DNA of 50,126 bases from Deltaproteobacteria bacterium (GTDB taxonomy: Bacteria > Desulfobacterota > Desulfobulbia > Desulfobulbales > Desulfurivibrionaceae). The DNA lies in the NCBI GenBank assembly GCA_021802645.1, contig JAJZRO010000018.1, positions 1-50,126 of the forward strand, given 5' to 3'. Both the position numbers and the translations under genes were made by a program. Below are positions 12,211 to 16,713 of this stretch, in pieces; positions within the stretch are counted from its first letter, which is position 1, and each line of letters opens with the position of its first letter. Below the pieces are notes generated by a model, which was not told the DNA's origin, did no database searches, and saw only the letters and a program-made list of their open reading frames with translations.

Positions 12211-12348
12211 GGTAACTCCCACGCCCCGTTGCCTGATTCCCAAGCCGGTGCGGTTGCGGCAAAAATTGATCTTTGTTCCCGAAGAGCGGCAGTCTACCAG
12301 CGCCTGCCGGCTCCGTCAATGCAAAAGAGGGAAGAGGGCTGGAGGGGG

Positions 12349-12429
12349 CAGGATGAGGCGTTGTGCGTCAGGCTTTGGGAGGAGTAGGGGAAGGGCGTTT
12401 GGCGAGAATGAGAATTGGCATTGCGTCAC
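12349..12429. repeat. Direct repeat copy A flanking a toxin-antitoxin pair
   Basis: About 81 bases beginning caggatgagg and ending gcgtcac, roughly 80 percent identical by eye to 13202-13285 in the same orientation. The two copies bracket the antitoxin and toxin genes at 12436-13046. It is a possible mobile or intergenic repeat family. Confidence 0.7.
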
Positions 12430-12435
12430 CGGCAT

Positions 12436-12744
12436 TCAGGAAGCCGTGGTGGCGGTGAGCTTGAGTCCCAAGGCCTTGAAGACCCGCTGGATGGTTTCCA
12501 GCCGTGGCTGGGTGTTGGGCCGCAACGCCTTATAGAGCGCCTCGCGTTTGATGCCGCTGGCCTTGGCAATTTCGGTCATGCCCCGTGCCTTGGCAATGTG
12601 GCCCAGAGCGGCGGCCAGTTCTCCTGGCTCCCCCTCTTCCAGCACCTGGCGCAGATATTCCGCCACATCCGCATCGCCTTCAAGATATTGCGCCATGTCG
12701 AATTCTGGCAGGTCGCTGACCTTCGTTTTCACTTTCTTGCTCAT
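12436..12744 (-). CDS. Antitoxin of a RelE-type addiction module (HTH protein)
   Basis: 102 residues. The N-terminal part (SDLPEFDMAQYLEGDADVAEYLRQVLEEG) and the C-terminal helix-turn-helix (MTEIAKASGIKREALYKALRPNTQPRLETIQRVFKALG) match the probable addiction-module antidote proteins (COG3636-like). These neutralise a RelE/HigB-type toxin and repress their own operon. The ATG at 12744 has GGAG upstream and follows the toxin stop by five bases, so the order is toxin first, as in higBA loci. Confidence 0.88.
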   Translation of the reverse strand: MSKKVKTKVSDLPEFDMAQYLEGDADVAEYLRQVLEEGEPGELAAALGHIAKARGMTEIAKASGIKREALYKALRPNTQPRLETIQRVFKALGLKLTATTAS

Positions 12745-12749
12745 GATTT

Positions 12750-13046
12750 TCACTCCGCTAAAGAGGCTGCCAACACCCTGGCTGCGGCAATGTCGGCCTT
12801 CTGGCTGCTTTTGTCGCCACCGCCGAGCATCACGATCAGCATGTCGCCTTGCTGGACGTAATACATGCGCCAACCGGGACCAAAGAATTCCCGCATTTCA
12901 AAAACACCGTCGCCCACCGGAGCCACATCACCCAGCAGCCCCCGCTGAGCCTTTTCCAGGCGCCGCAACAACCGGAACCGTGTTGGACGGTCGCGCAAGC
13001 TTTCAAACCAGGCATCGAATTCCGGCATGCGCCTGATGGTGAGCAT
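12750..13046 (-). CDS. RelE/HigB-type addiction-module toxin
   Basis: A 98-residue protein of the addiction-module killer family (COG3657-like, RelE fold): MLTIRRMPEFDAWFESLRDR, then LGDVAPVGDGVFEMREFFGPGWRMYYVQQG and the characteristic LGGGDKSSQKADIAAA. It probably cleaves mRNA at the ribosome when its partner is lost. It is the first gene of the pair. A TACAAT -10-like element lies only five bases before the ATG, so the message may be leaderless as for the second module. The copy looks complete. Confidence 0.88.
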   Translation of the reverse strand: MLTIRRMPEFDAWFESLRDRPTRFRLLRRLEKAQRGLLGDVAPVGDGVFEMREFFGPGWRMYYVQQGDMLIVMLGGGDKSSQKADIAAARVLAASLAE

Positions 13047-13201
13047 GACCTATTGTAATCGATCGAGGACGAATTGGCCAGCCTTGATTTTCAACTCAAT
13101 ATCTTCGCGCAGAAAAAACCGTTTGCCAGGGCGGCGAATCGGCGGCCCCTTGCTCAATCGCTGTGGACAGCGTGCCTTCCGGCAGCGGTTCAGAGAGCGG
13201 G
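13047..13201 (-). pseudogene. Possible degraded ORF upstream of the toxin
   Basis: On the minus strand one frame ends ...GKRFFLREDIELKIKAGQF... and stops with TAG just before the toxin, while the adjacent frame upstream reads ...LPEGTLSTAIEQG.... Together they look like one short gene broken by a frameshift, possibly a small DNA-binding or antitoxin protein. No start codon or family could be fixed, so this is tentative. Confidence 0.25.
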
Positions 13202-13285
13202 TAGGATGAGGCTTTGTGCTTCAGGCTTTGGGGGGGGGGAGTGAGGGAGAGCGGTTGGCGGGAATGGGTATCGGTATCGCGTCAC
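13202..13285. repeat. Direct repeat copy B flanking a toxin-antitoxin pair
   Basis: About 84 bases from taggatgagg to gcgtcac, same orientation as copy A at 12349-12429. It contains a run of ten G (13230-13239) where copy A has a shorter, interrupted run. Confidence 0.7.
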
Positions 13286-13324
13286 GAATTCCCGAGTTGA
13301 AACGCGTTGTATGCCTCATCTGCC

Positions 13325-14083
13325 TTAAAGTCCCAACGAGGCCCGCCAGGAGGGCAGCGGCAGCGCGTCCCAAGTCCGCCCCTGGAGCAGGCGGCCATTC
13401 TGTTTTTTCGCCCGCTTCTTGCCGTCAACACCCCAGCCGCCCCATTGCTTGAAGAAAAAGGCGGCCTGTTGTTCCTCGCATTGGCGCTTGATATTGAGCA
13501 CCCATTCCTGTCGCATGGGCCGGGCCTTGGGGCCGGATTCGCCACCGACGATCACCCAATGGATGCCGTCGAGATTCACCATGCCCAGGTCTTCCAGCAA
13601 GGGTTCCACGGAGAGGAAACGAATTTGTGCCGGCACTTGGCGAAGCAAGTCGATCCGAGGAACCCCGAATTTCCGATCCTCCACCGTGACCCCGAGCCAG
13701 GCGTTGCGCGGTGGCCTATAATCCTGGAAAAATCTGGCCATGCGCTCGGCCCGTTTGGTCAGAACTTGAAAGGTGTGTTGCGGCGCTCGCCGGATCACCT
13801 CGAAAACCTGCCGGATGTAGTCATCAGGAATCTCTTCGTGAAAAATGTCGCTCATGGAGTTGACGAAGTAGATGGTCGGCTTGGCCCGCTGCAACGGCTC
13901 TTCCAGCCGATTGGGCAGCAGGGTCAGGGCAAAGCCATTTTCATAACCCTTGACGCCCATAGCCTGCAACCGCTTGGCCATGACCTCGGCATAACAATGG
14001 GCGCAACCGGGAGAGGCCTTGCTGCACCCCACGGTGGGGTTCCAGGTCCGCTCGGTCCATTCGATTGATGTTTGCGTACTCAT
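13325..14083 (-). CDS. Phage Gp37/Gp68-family (DUF5131) three-Cys-motif protein
   Basis: 252 residues of the Gp37_Gp68 family. The hallmark is IEWTERTWNPTVGCSKASPGCAHCYA, where C20, C27 and C30 form the C-x6-C-x2-C motif, radical-SAM-like in layout and probably metal- or cluster-binding. It continues with FVNSMSDIFHE, FQVLTKRAERM, WLGVTVED, RFLSVEPLLEDLG, WVIVGGESGPKARPM and FFFKQWGGW, all characteristic of the family. The molecular function is not known to me. Its ATG overlaps the TGA of the upstream tcmP gene (ATGA at 14080-14083), which strongly implies coupled synthesis and a joint job. Confidence 0.9.
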   Translation of the reverse strand: MSTQTSIEWTERTWNPTVGCSKASPGCAHCYAEVMAKRLQAMGVKGYENGFALTLLPNRLEEPLQRAKPTIYFVNSMSDIFHEEIPDDYIRQVFEVIRRAPQHTFQVLTKRAERMARFFQDYRPPRNAWLGVTVEDRKFGVPRIDLLRQVPAQIRFLSVEPLLEDLGMVNLDGIHWVIVGGESGPKARPMRQEWVLNIKRQCEEQQAAFFFKQWGGWGVDGKKRAKKQNGRLLQGRTWDALPLPSWRASLGL

Positions 14084-15237
14084 GGTGTCACCTTTACCAA
14101 CTGTTCGCCATCCTTGAAATATACAAATTTGCTCCGCCGTTTCGGAGTTCCATCGAGATTCTGCACCAAGCCCTTTCGGGCCAGCTCACCGAAAGCTTTT
14201 TGAAAATCACTCTCGAACCAGCCGGTTTCTTCCAGCATATCCGCTAATTCCTCCATCCCGTAGCGTTCCGGGGTAAATTTCAGTCTGCTCAGCCAATATT
14301 CTTCAACACCAGCGAGATCCCGGTCCTCTCTTTCTGGCCTAACCTGATCGGCAGCGGGAAACATTTCCATCTGCTTGCTGCGTTGCACCCGCGCGTCCTG
14401 CTTCGCCGCTGCCCGCGCCTTTTTCTGAACCCAATCCAGATGCTCCGATGCCTCCATGAACTTGACAATCCCCAGGTGGTGCCTGGTCAGGTAGACGAGA
14501 TGGTAAAGGGTGCGATCCTTAATAGGATTTAGGACTTTCACGGATGCAGTGCGCGGCTTCCGCCCATCAACCGGCAACACCTGTTTGAGGTTGTTGCGGT
14601 AAAGCGAAAGGAGAAATGTCTCCCGTTGGTCGGGTGTCATATCCCGAACATCCGGGACTATGCCAAAAATACGACGCATGTCTTCCTGTAATTTTGCGTC
14701 GGATACAAACCGGGAAAGGAAACCGTACATGAAATTAATGAGGAACTCGGAATTGGGCCGCCTGAGGAGCGGGGTCAAGGTCGGGCGTTCCACATCATTC
14801 TTCCAACCTTTAGGGTCAACAAAAAAGAAAACGAAATCTCTTGGGGCGCACCAGTCAAGGATCTCCGGGATTAGCTCATGGAATGACCCGTTGAGCGCCT
14901 TGGTCTCGGTTCCTTCATGTTTCCTGCCGGACAGGTAGTCTTCAAGTTTCTGAAACGACTTGCTGTTCTGTTCAATAAACAGTGCCCGGAACCGCACATT
15001 TTTGCCCATCCGCGACAAGCCGCTCCGGCATTTTTTAATGATGTCCAGGGACTTGGCGATTGATGTGTCGCCAAGATCCTCCCCCTGCTCTTCCCAAGGC
15101 CCGGCGAAACAATCCACATAGCAGATGCTGGGCGCGTGCTGACCGACAATCATAAACAATCGCTCAAGGTAAGCTTCCAACAGGCGATGCTTGAAATAGG
15201 TCTGCTCACGGCCTTTGTAGTGTTCGAAATTTTCCAC
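14080..15237 (-). CDS. tcmP: Three-Cys-motif partner protein TcmP
   Basis: 385 residues matching the partner family (TIGR04474) that accompanies Gp37/Gp68 proteins: KHRLLEAYLERLFMIVG near the N-terminus, then SICYVDCFAGPWEEQG (about 38-53), LFIEQNSKSFQKLE, and DFVFFFVDPKGW (about 135-146), a layout that recalls an AdoMet-methyltransferase-like Rossmann fold. The last 60 residues (YGMEELADMLEETGWFESDFQKAFGELARKGLVQN in part) look like a winged helix. The start is GTG at 15237, backed by a very strong AAGGAGGT four bases upstream. Base composition is lower in GC than the core genes. Function unknown; nucleic-acid modification or phage defence is inference. Confidence 0.88.
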   Translation of the reverse strand: MENFEHYKGREQTYFKHRLLEAYLERLFMIVGQHAPSICYVDCFAGPWEEQGEDLGDTSIAKSLDIIKKCRSGLSRMGKNVRFRALFIEQNSKSFQKLEDYLSGRKHEGTETKALNGSFHELIPEILDWCAPRDFVFFFVDPKGWKNDVERPTLTPLLRRPNSEFLINFMYGFLSRFVSDAKLQEDMRRIFGIVPDVRDMTPDQRETFLLSLYRNNLKQVLPVDGRKPRTASVKVLNPIKDRTLYHLVYLTRHHLGIVKFMEASEHLDWVQKKARAAAKQDARVQRSKQMEMFPAADQVRPEREDRDLAGVEEYWLSRLKFTPERYGMEELADMLEETGWFESDFQKAFGELARKGLVQNLDGTPKRRSKFVYFKDGEQLVKVTP

Positions 15238-15475
15238 GCCACCTCCTTGCCAAGCTCCCTATAAGGGCCGGAACCCAGAGAGCAACAAGTCACCGGATTC
15301 CGGGGACGCAATACTCATTTCCCATCAACCGCTGTTTTCCCGTTCGCTCAAGATTTGGTAACCGCAAGCGCCGCAGCGTTTTTCACCCTGCCATCCACCA
15401 TGCCACAGAGCCAGGGACAATCGGTGTGTCCCAGGTTCTTTTCTCCTCTTCGGCAGAAAGGGTCACTGTCTCCCT
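15238..15475. other. Intergenic region between tcmP and higA
   Basis: 238 bases with the tcmP Shine-Dalgarno and a possible TATAGG -10 (minus strand) within the first 30 bases. No gene, repeat or clear terminator is seen in the rest. Confidence 0.4.
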
Positions 15476-15775
15476 TCATGCTGCATGTTTGCGGACGTGC
15501 GGCTCGATCTCGGGCCAGGTGGTGCGTTGCGCGAGACGCAGGTCGTAGTCGCTCTGCAGGTCCAGCCAGAGTTCCGGCGAGACCGAGAAATACTTGCCCA
15601 GGCGAAGGGCGGTGTCCGCCGTGATCGACCGCTTGCCATTCACGATCTCGCTGATCCGGTTGGGCGGTACGCTGATCGCCCGCGACAGGGCATTGATGCT
15701 GATTTTCAGCGGATTCATGAACTCTTCAAGCAGAATCTCGCCAGGGGGAATGGGATCAAGTTGTTTGGTCGCCAT
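15476..15775 (-). CDS. higA: HigA-family antitoxin (XRE/VapI type)
   Basis: 99 residues, beginning MATKQLDPIPPGEILLEEFMNPLKISINALSRAISVPPNRISEIVNGKRSIT in sequence order, the standard HigA/VapI helix-turn-helix; the C-terminal part SPELWLDLQSDYDL is also typical. It binds HigB and represses the operon. The ATG at 15775 was preferred to the long upstream extension (to 15853), which overlaps higB. It follows higB by 11 bases. Confidence 0.92.
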   Translation of the reverse strand: MATKQLDPIPPGEILLEEFMNPLKISINALSRAISVPPNRISEIVNGKRSITADTALRLGKYFSVSPELWLDLQSDYDLRLAQRTTWPEIEPHVRKHAA

Positions 15776-15786
15776 GGTTCTCGCTC

Positions 15787-16065
15787 CTAATGGTAATCCA
15801 CTATTTCGACGCCATGCACCTCGCCGTTTTTCCACGTGAAGCAGATGCGCCACTGGTCATTGATGCGGATGCTGTATTGCCCCTTGCGGTCGCCCCGAAG
15901 CGCTTCGAGCCGGTTGCCGGGCGGTTGCCGTAAATCGTCCAACGTCCGCGCCCGGTTGAGATAAAGCAGCTTGCGCCGTGCCGGTCGCTCAATGGAACGA
16001 AATCGCGACACCAATATGTCGTGGAACAGCTTTTCCGTGTCTGCGCATTGGAACGACCTGATCAT
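15787..16065 (-). CDS. higB: HigB-family toxin
   Basis: A 92-residue RelE-superfamily mRNA interferase: MIRSFQCADTEKLFHD, then RKLLYLNRARTLDDLRQPPGNRLEALRGDRKGQ and SIRINDQWRICFTW, ending VEIVDYH. All match HigB proteins that cut mRNA on the ribosome. It is first in the higBA operon. The start ATG lies only five bases past the -10 hexamer of a near-perfect promoter, so the transcript probably starts at the AUG itself and has no leader. Confidence 0.92.
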   Translation of the reverse strand: MIRSFQCADTEKLFHDILVSRFRSIERPARRKLLYLNRARTLDDLRQPPGNRLEALRGDRKGQYSIRINDQWRICFTWKNGEVHGVEIVDYH

Positions 16066-16070
16066 GAAAC

Positions 16071-16099
16071 ATGATATTACGTGATGCGTAATATGTCAA
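16071..16099 (-). promoter_or_regulatory. higBA promoter with palindromic operator in the spacer
   Basis: On the minus strand TTGACA (16099-16094) and TATCAT (16076-16071) stand 17 bases apart. A perfect 8-bp inverted repeat (ATATTACG and CGTAATAT, five-base centre, 16074-16094) fills the spacer and touches both hexamers. It is a natural HigA operator: bound antitoxin would block polymerase. Confidence 0.75.
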
Positions 16100-16143
16100 T
16101 CGTAATGGAAGAGGAAGAAGGCGCAGGGCGGAAGGAGGCCGTG

Positions 16144-16713
16144 TCAGAACACCCCGTGGTCGAGGAGGATTTTCGTGCCGATGGCGATGAGCACCAGCCC
16201 GCCTGCCACCTCGGCCCGCTGGCCGAGTTTCGAGGCGGCGCCGACGAAACAGCCCAGGCGCAGGCCGACCGCGGTGAGGAGCGCAGCAACGATGCCGATG
16301 ATGAACGCCGGCAGCCAGACGGGGATGCGGAGCACGGCAAAGCTGAGGCCCACCGCGAGGGCATCGATGCTGGTGGCCACCGAGAGGATGATGAGCCGCC
16401 GGCCGCGGGTCGGGTCCCGCTCGCTCCGCTCCTCATCGTGGTCGAAAAGCGCTTCGTAGATCATGTGGCCGCCCACCAGGGCAAGCAGCCCAAAGGCGAC
16501 CCAGTGGTCGAAGCGTTCGATGAGGGGGCGCACGGTGAGCCCACCGGCCCAGCCGAGGATGTTCATCCCCGCCTGGAAGAAGCCGAAATGCCAGGCGAGG
16601 CGGAAGGTCTGGCGGAAGCTGACGTTGCAGAGCGAGACCCCGGCCGCGATGGCCACCGCAAAGGCATCCACCGCCAGGGCCAGGGCGATGGCGAGGATGG
16701 CGAGCAGGTCCAT
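16144..16713 (-). CDS. mntP: Manganese efflux pump MntP
   Basis: A 189-residue six-helix inner-membrane protein of the MntP (YebN, DUF204) family. The two internal-repeat signatures are present: ALAVDAFAVAIAAG (residues about 12-25) and ATSIDALAVGLSFA (about 112-125), with the membrane Asp residues that bind Mn2+. LVLIAIGTKILLDHGVF is the usual C-terminus. It exports Mn2+ to prevent poisoning. The gene lies directly after the Crp/Fnr-type regulator gene on the same strand (23 bases), so that regulator may control it. Confidence 0.93.
   Translation of the reverse strand: MDLLAILAIALALAVDAFAVAIAAGVSLCNVSFRQTFRLAWHFGFFQAGMNILGWAGGLTVRPLIERFDHWVAFGLLALVGGHMIYEALFDHDEERSERDPTRGRRLIILSVATSIDALAVGLSFAVLRIPVWLPAFIIGIVAALLTAVGLRLGCFVGAASKLGQRAEVAGGLVLIAIGTKILLDHGVF

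Follow-up and report, generated by a model that had tools for sequence, protein, structure and literature searches.

A mobile gene pair of a predicted SPL-like radical-SAM enzyme and a variable RlmJ-like partner, possibly acting on nucleic-acid bases

The DUF5131 gene and tcmP form an overlapping pair in the 50,126-nucleotide stretch of deltaproteobacterial DNA analyzed here (the window). We favor, at a probability of roughly 0.4, a reading in which the pair is a mobile module of two AdoMet-using enzymes that jointly target a base of a nucleic acid, DNA being the likeliest, and serve genome defense in this way. Judged from what they resemble and from where relatives carry them (on phages and plasmids, and in restriction or damage-response operons), the two proteins probably alter DNA bases for either defense or repair. 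Defense-linked modification is favored because TcmP evolves fast, because restriction-modification (R-M) operons contain the pair, and because temperate elements carry it near lysogeny genes. Both families had already been named; new here are the anatomy of the pair, the homologies to RlmJ and SPL, the pairing pattern, and the genetic contexts. With this anatomy, a family whose name refers solely to cysteines becomes an enzyme pair that can be tested directly, since its catalytic residues are predicted. R-M is usually thought to depend on simple methylation. If our reading is true, a radical-SAM enzyme working with swappable methyltransferase-like partners in R-M operons would represent unknown base chemistry in bacterial defense or repair, and such chemistry would travel on plasmids, transposons and prophages.

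The window comes from a genome of 2.55 Mb in 38 contigs. The ORF listing and the sequence agree with the preliminary description of two minus-strand reading frames joined by an ATGA start/stop overlap (4 nt at 14080..14083, minus strand), the first of them with a strong Shine-Dalgarno sequence (AAGGAGG, 15242..15248, minus strand, 4 nt before the GTG start of tcmP). The same 4-nt overlap occurs at 20 of the 48 loci in which TcmP lies upstream of DUF5131. The features of the locus are as follows, with residue counts from an alignment of 177 TcmPs given where the position was aligned.

12211..16145, no strand: accessory insert between thiC and mntP, about 3.9 kb with approximate boundaries, holding TA1, the DUF5131/TcmP pair and HigBA
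12436..13046, minus strand: TA1 module, RelE/ParE-type toxin (12750-13046) and HI1420-type antitoxin (12436-12873); TIGR02683 and TIGR02684 over cut-off
13325..14083, minus strand: DUF5131 gene (phage Gp37/Gp68 family), 252 aa, ATG start; predicted SPL-like radical-SAM enzyme
13994..14026, minus strand: C20-x6-C27-x2-C30 motif of DUF5131 (residues 20-30), presumed [4Fe-4S] ligands
14080..15237, minus strand: tcmP, 385 aa, GTG start at 15237; RlmJ-like methyltransferase-fold partner, class A
14152..14334, minus strand: C-terminal winged-helix region of TcmP (residues 302-362); PF22560 at E 1.2e-5, just under cut-off; helices in the AlphaFold2 model
14806..14817, minus strand: TcmP motif IV, D141-P-K-G (DPPY in RlmJ); D141 in 176/176, position 142 P or Q; Asp in register with the motif IV Asp of RlmJ (hhalign)
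15100..15114, minus strand: TcmP motif I, D42-C-F-A-G46, of AdoMet-site type; D42 in 176/176, G46 in 175/176
15190..15192, minus strand: TcmP Lys16, K in 175/175; counterpart of RlmJ motif X Lys18 by position only
15476..16065, minus strand: HigBA module, HigB toxin (15787-16065, PF05015) and HigA antitoxin (15476-15853, TIGR02607 over cut-off)

Profile matches identify the toxin-antitoxin genes described on either side of the pair as HI1419/HI1420-type and HigBA. Because thiC and mntP are only about 150 bp apart in two relatives that lack the insert (150 bp in G003 and 144 bp in G022), the space between them is an accessory site in the window. GC content is 0.564 in the insert vs 0.628 in the window, and is lowest in tcmP (0.517). 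By eye, no R-M gene, including Mod, Res and IIG, was seen among the ORFs at 9-20 kb, and no S24 gene was seen adjoining the pair. A same-genus genome, G001, holds two copies of the thiC region (contigs C23 and C32, with 86% and 88% identity to the window), reflecting either duplication or a mixed assembly. The short intergenic stretches 12342-12438 and 13179-13291, which flank TA1, recur several times near thiC in C23 and may be a repeat family marking an insertion hot spot.

Of 58 related genomes, 9 have DUF5131 and 8 have TcmP, in most cases both; G001 has neither. In the phylum sample they occurred in 59 and 52 of 297 genomes, respectively. Of 72,556 plasmid records, 405 contained DUF5131, as did 161 of 50,697 phage records. 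On the Pseudomonas plasmids pF046 and pCAR1, Tn3-type elements carry the pair as cargo (the pCAR1 copy lying near IS elements), and it is also carried by an ICE-like plasmid, by Streptomyces, Sinorhizobium, Hymenobacter and Comamonas plasmids, and by phages. This patchy distribution, the empty thiC-mntP site, and the occurrence as cargo of transposons, ICEs, plasmids and prophages support the earlier proposal of a mobile accessory pair. A housekeeping role, which that proposal had named as its refutation, is rejected by the first two of these observations. In pF046 (L200) and pCAR1 (L203), DUF5131-tcmP adjoins genes for a site-specific integrase and a DNA-binding protein, with Tn3-family genes nearby in pF046. 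No DNA match to a Pseudomonas DUF5131 gene was found in E. coli genomes.

The window DUF5131 belongs to PF07505 (360.8 bits; cut-off 28.9). The C-x6-C-x2-C motif noted in the preliminary description is exact, and a single Ser at C30 is the one departure from its three Cys among 192 non-redundant relatives. As in radical-SAM enzymes, these cluster-type Cys lie near the N-terminal end of a partial TIM barrel, according to the alignment and the AlphaFold2 model (pTM 0.90). The canonical radical-SAM spacing, CX3CX2C, is absent from the window protein. The suggested radical-SAM relationship is strengthened by the best PDB structural match of the model, SPL (4rh0; Z 13.8, 197 residues, 3.0 Å), followed by viperin (Z 11.4) and RlmN (Z 11.0). 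In addition, residues 15-213 match the NCBIfam radical-SAM model TIGR04471 (radical SAM mobile pair protein A) at E 6e-27, although the score of 94.5 bits is far under the 355-bit cut-off and therefore indicates a related but distinct family. Sequence-profile searches of the PDB failed to reach SPL or RlmJ, which were reached by structure comparison alone.

SPL (SplB, PF20903) is a radical-SAM DNA-repair enzyme that reverses a base lesion. Its likeness to DUF5131 extends to a Tyr right after the third Cys (Y31, in 187 of the 192 sequences), which in B. subtilis SPL is Y99. In contrast to SPL, DUF5131 has the C-x6-C-x2-C spacing, no direct match to PF20903 (none at E 1 for the window protein), and no invariant fourth Cys among the 192 sequences, in which C202 is found in 155 and S76 in 187. 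The H-atom donor of B. subtilis SPL is C141, the fourth conserved Cys (PMC3742179). Asp79, Thr-Lys-Arg 109-111, Glu160-Pro161 and Gly-Gly-Glu 180-182 are almost invariant across the same DUF5131 set.

TcmP belongs to TIGR04474 (124.6 bits; cut-off 53). The earlier description of a Rossmann-like protein ending in a winged helix is borne out by the AlphaFold2 model (pTM 0.85) and the near-threshold PF22560 match. The "GMT" in the name of PF22560 was traced to GMT mobile elements (cited only), and the match of TcmP to this family is weak and of wHTH type. TcmP is a homologue of the rRNA adenine methyltransferase RlmJ, which is both its best structural match (Z 15.6, rmsd 3.1, 205 residues, AlphaFold2 model) and a profile match across motifs I to IV (hhalign, E 2e-7). 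RlmJ (PF04378) is the 23S rRNA A2030 N6-methyltransferase and acts on RNA. Beside the residues listed above, position 89 of TcmP (motif II) is acidic in 175 of 176 sequences. The catalytic pair of RlmJ is K18 and D164, with K18 being essential (PMC3814359), and since K16 and D141 are invariant, TcmP appears to retain this pair, without DPPY. The DPP(Y/F) form of motif IV is absent from the TcmPs, which have DPKG in the window and DP-x-G or DQYG elsewhere; TcmP may therefore not methylate, and methylation by it is not certain. From these sequence features we infer an active AdoMet-site protein that would handle a flipped base. TcmP also differs from RlmJ in lacking the N-terminal H-A-G-N motif X tail, in the extra winged helix of class A, and in being tied to a radical-SAM partner at most loci examined. 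The idea that TcmP is simply a misnamed RlmJ orthologue was rejected, given the missing DPPY and an RlmJ profile that matches nothing in the window genome at E 0.001. At two loci, L063 (3394-4089) and L064 (5243-5995), some 1.1 kb of additional DNA, which may be an intron or an insertion element, interrupts the TcmP frame that is intact in L062 (4850-5995).

TcmP is paired with a protein of the three-Cys-motif type both in the window, where the DUF5131 gene overlaps it, and in relatives, as gene pairs or fusions. Across 172 non-redundant DUF5131 loci, TcmP was placed upstream in tandem, downstream in tandem, downstream and convergent, on both sides, or twice downstream; at 60 of the 172 no TcmP was found within the stretch covered. 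Along the DUF5131 tree, a quick one, the arrangement changes at least 24 times. DUF5131 proteins 69-75% identical to that of the window often have TcmPs only about 20-25% identical to the window TcmP, the exception being class A, the class of the window protein, at about 38-60%. Some loci combine one DUF5131 with two TcmP classes (e.g., L112, L121, L134, L139). By these sequence comparisons, DUF5131 is the fixed half of the pair and TcmP the varying half, as would be expected for a targeting or recognition subunit.

The partner of TcmP is an SPL-type enzyme generally, rather than DUF5131 as such. Several TcmPs without DUF5131 adjoin another radical-SAM protein with CX3CX2C, the genes overlapping in L225, L227, L228, L233 and L234. 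Natural fusions of TcmP to SPL-type radical-SAM domains occur in L222, L223 and L224, and the domain in L224 scores over the Pfam SPL cut-off (54.8 vs 27 bits). Compared by hhalign, DUF5131 and these TcmP-linked SPL-like proteins give a non-significant E of 0.083, with their Cys, Asp and TK motifs in register.

The genetic contexts of the pair in relatives include two kinds of neighbors, R-M genes and S24 genes, whose signals come from different samples (the phylum sample and the close DUF5131 relatives, respectively). Both were obtained with custom profiles, a small control and mechanically called ORFs, and many of the loci are from MAGs. In the phylum sample, R-M genes lie within 5 kb at 11 of 42 loci, compared to 1 of 20 random 20-kb stretches of the same genomes. 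The pair is built into type III operons in the order Res-TcmP-DUF5131-Mod (L262, L246) or TcmP-DUF5131-Mod-Res (L238, L240), and type IIG-like enzymes adjoin TcmP-SPL units (L222, L224, L227, L233, L234). This likeness to type III and IIG systems has its limits: R-M genes are rare among close DUF5131 relatives (5 of 78 loci), most pairs elsewhere have none nearby, the window pair has no neighboring Mod, Res or IIG gene by eye, and neither protein is a known R-M subunit.

Conversely, S24 (LexA/UmuD-type) genes lie within 1.5 kb at 35 of 78 loci of close DUF5131 relatives, nearly always upstream, mostly immediately so, and on the same strand; in the phylum sample they show no enrichment (3 of 42). 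Peptidase_S24 accounts for 30 of 107 upstream neighbors, the next commonest family for 5. The S24 proteins inspected by eye retain the Ala-Gly site, Ser and Lys. At six convergent prophage loci, TcmP is preceded on its own strand by an S24 repressor; in Gordonia phage ThankyouJordi the immunity repressor takes that place. Several Burkholderiales loci (L144, L155, L164 and similar) have a LexA-like S24 gene in the middle of the cassette, with TcmP and DUF5131 on either side; at some of them it shares 4 nt with DUF5131. A TGACA-N5-TGTCA motif was noted at about seven loci, mostly 35-78 bp upstream of tcmP. As an operator it was discarded, its overall counts differing little from chance except at the best scores. 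A TGACAT-nnn-CTGTCAT-like motif, possibly a promoter with operator, lies mostly 35-48 bp upstream of class-A tcmP (L104, L106, L112, L113, L114, L188, L108). The window has neither motif.

In the mechanism that we propose, TcmP, through its RlmJ-like fold, would dock on DNA, flip and present the target base, and perhaps methylate it first. The SPL-like DUF5131 would then carry out 5'-deoxyadenosyl radical chemistry on the presented base. TcmP would be the fast-changing targeting partner, DUF5131 the conserved one, and the pair would leave a new mark on the DNA of host or invader, used beside classical R-M and in places under self-cleaving repressors. What we observe, all of it in sequences or predicted structures, is the families, folds, conserved residues, partner variability, gene contexts and mobility; catalysis by both proteins, DNA as the target, and this order of steps are inferred, and the same function would extend to the window locus by analogy with relatives. 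A more general formulation is offered tentatively: a new class of DNA-modification systems in which a conserved SPL-type radical-SAM protein, together with exchangeable RlmJ-like subunits for targeting, introduces or removes a non-canonical DNA base, and which has been built into type III/IIG operons and SOS-controlled mobile cassettes. Counting against the defense reading are the lack of DPPY in TcmP, the departure of DUF5131 from CX3CX2C, the action on RNA of RlmJ as nearest structural kin, and the lack of an R-M gene by the window pair and most others; moreover, S24 repressors fit repair equally well.

The strongest alternative is damage-inducible DNA repair, given that SPL itself repairs DNA, that splB is under SOS control in alpha- and beta-proteobacteria (PMC3323433; see also PMC3765255), and that many loci have an S24 repressor of their own. 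DUF5131 would then reverse a specific base lesion by SPL-type chemistry after delivery to DNA by TcmP, a dedicated LexA/UmuD-like repressor releasing the module upon damage. The S24 frequencies among close relatives, an S24-rSAM-TcmP operon in L228, UmuD/UmuC upstream in L139, and IMS polymerases near other loci are all consistent with this. The SOS-type repressors at relatives' loci thus make a damage response a serious competitor to defense, and of the preliminary proposal of a mobile modification or defense system it is the setting that stands, through the R-M operons of relatives and the listing of both families as PADLOC candidates (PDC-M30/M41). We regard repair as unlikely. Repair of one fixed lesion gives no reason for TcmPs to diverge quickly and be exchanged, and type III and IIG operons would be odd homes for a repair enzyme. 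Likewise, S24 genes are neither enriched in the phylum sample nor seen by the window pair, and DUF5131 lacks an invariant fourth Cys like the H-donor of SPL.

An RNA target has to be considered since RlmJ acts on RNA. rRNA methylases are known as cargo of mobile elements, and a mobile RlmJ/RlmN-like system modifying rRNA or tRNA could make host translation resistant to phages, toxins or antibiotics. The nearest fold and profile homologue of TcmP is RlmJ, and RlmN ranks high for DUF5131, yet the pair is linked to genes of DNA R-M and to SOS-type repressors, and the extreme TcmP variability is difficult to reconcile with an invariant rRNA target; we consider this improbable. It is more improbable still that the pair removes or changes the hypermodified bases in the DNA of infecting phages, opening it to neighboring restriction enzymes: positions inside type III and beside type IIG operons, variable TcmPs to suit variable phage modifications, and the reversal of a base lesion by SPL would fit, but phages themselves carry DUF5131, often with no TcmP found. 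Very improbable, finally, is a toxin-antitoxin-like module in which TcmP either serves as a scaffold without catalytic activity or is itself a protein substrate that DUF5131 matures, and the pair is not a nucleic-acid enzyme. Flanking toxin-antitoxin genes in the window, a TcmP far more variable than DUF5131, and the missing DPPY speak for it. However, K16, D42, D141 and the acidic residue of motif II hardly vary across the 177 TcmPs, unlike in a dead scaffold, and natural fusions of TcmP to SPL-type domains also argue against it.

With regard to existing catalogues, the defense-linked reading meets a precedent in PADLOC, where PDC-M30A corresponds to TcmP and PDC-M30B/M41B to DUF5131. In the window both PDC-M30 components are found in adjacent, overlapping genes (A at E 4e-18, B at E 3e-112). 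PDC-M30 and PDC-M41 are listed there as candidates without description or mechanism, and the constant/variable pairing, the R-M operons and the S24 link are not in these entries. Our search of the non-preprint literature found no function study of the TcmP-DUF5131 pair, and a PADLOC scan of its upstream neighbors gave no recurring defense family. In L224 (2523-7001), a TcmP-SPL fusion lies by an IIG/DrmMI-like methylase; the genes that come next encode a nucleotidyltransferase-like protein, DarT and a macro-domain (DarG-like) protein. In L237, a DNA-methylase-like gene (743 aa, with a DPFMGGGTP motif) lies downstream of DUF5131, and a shorter relative occupies this position in L239.
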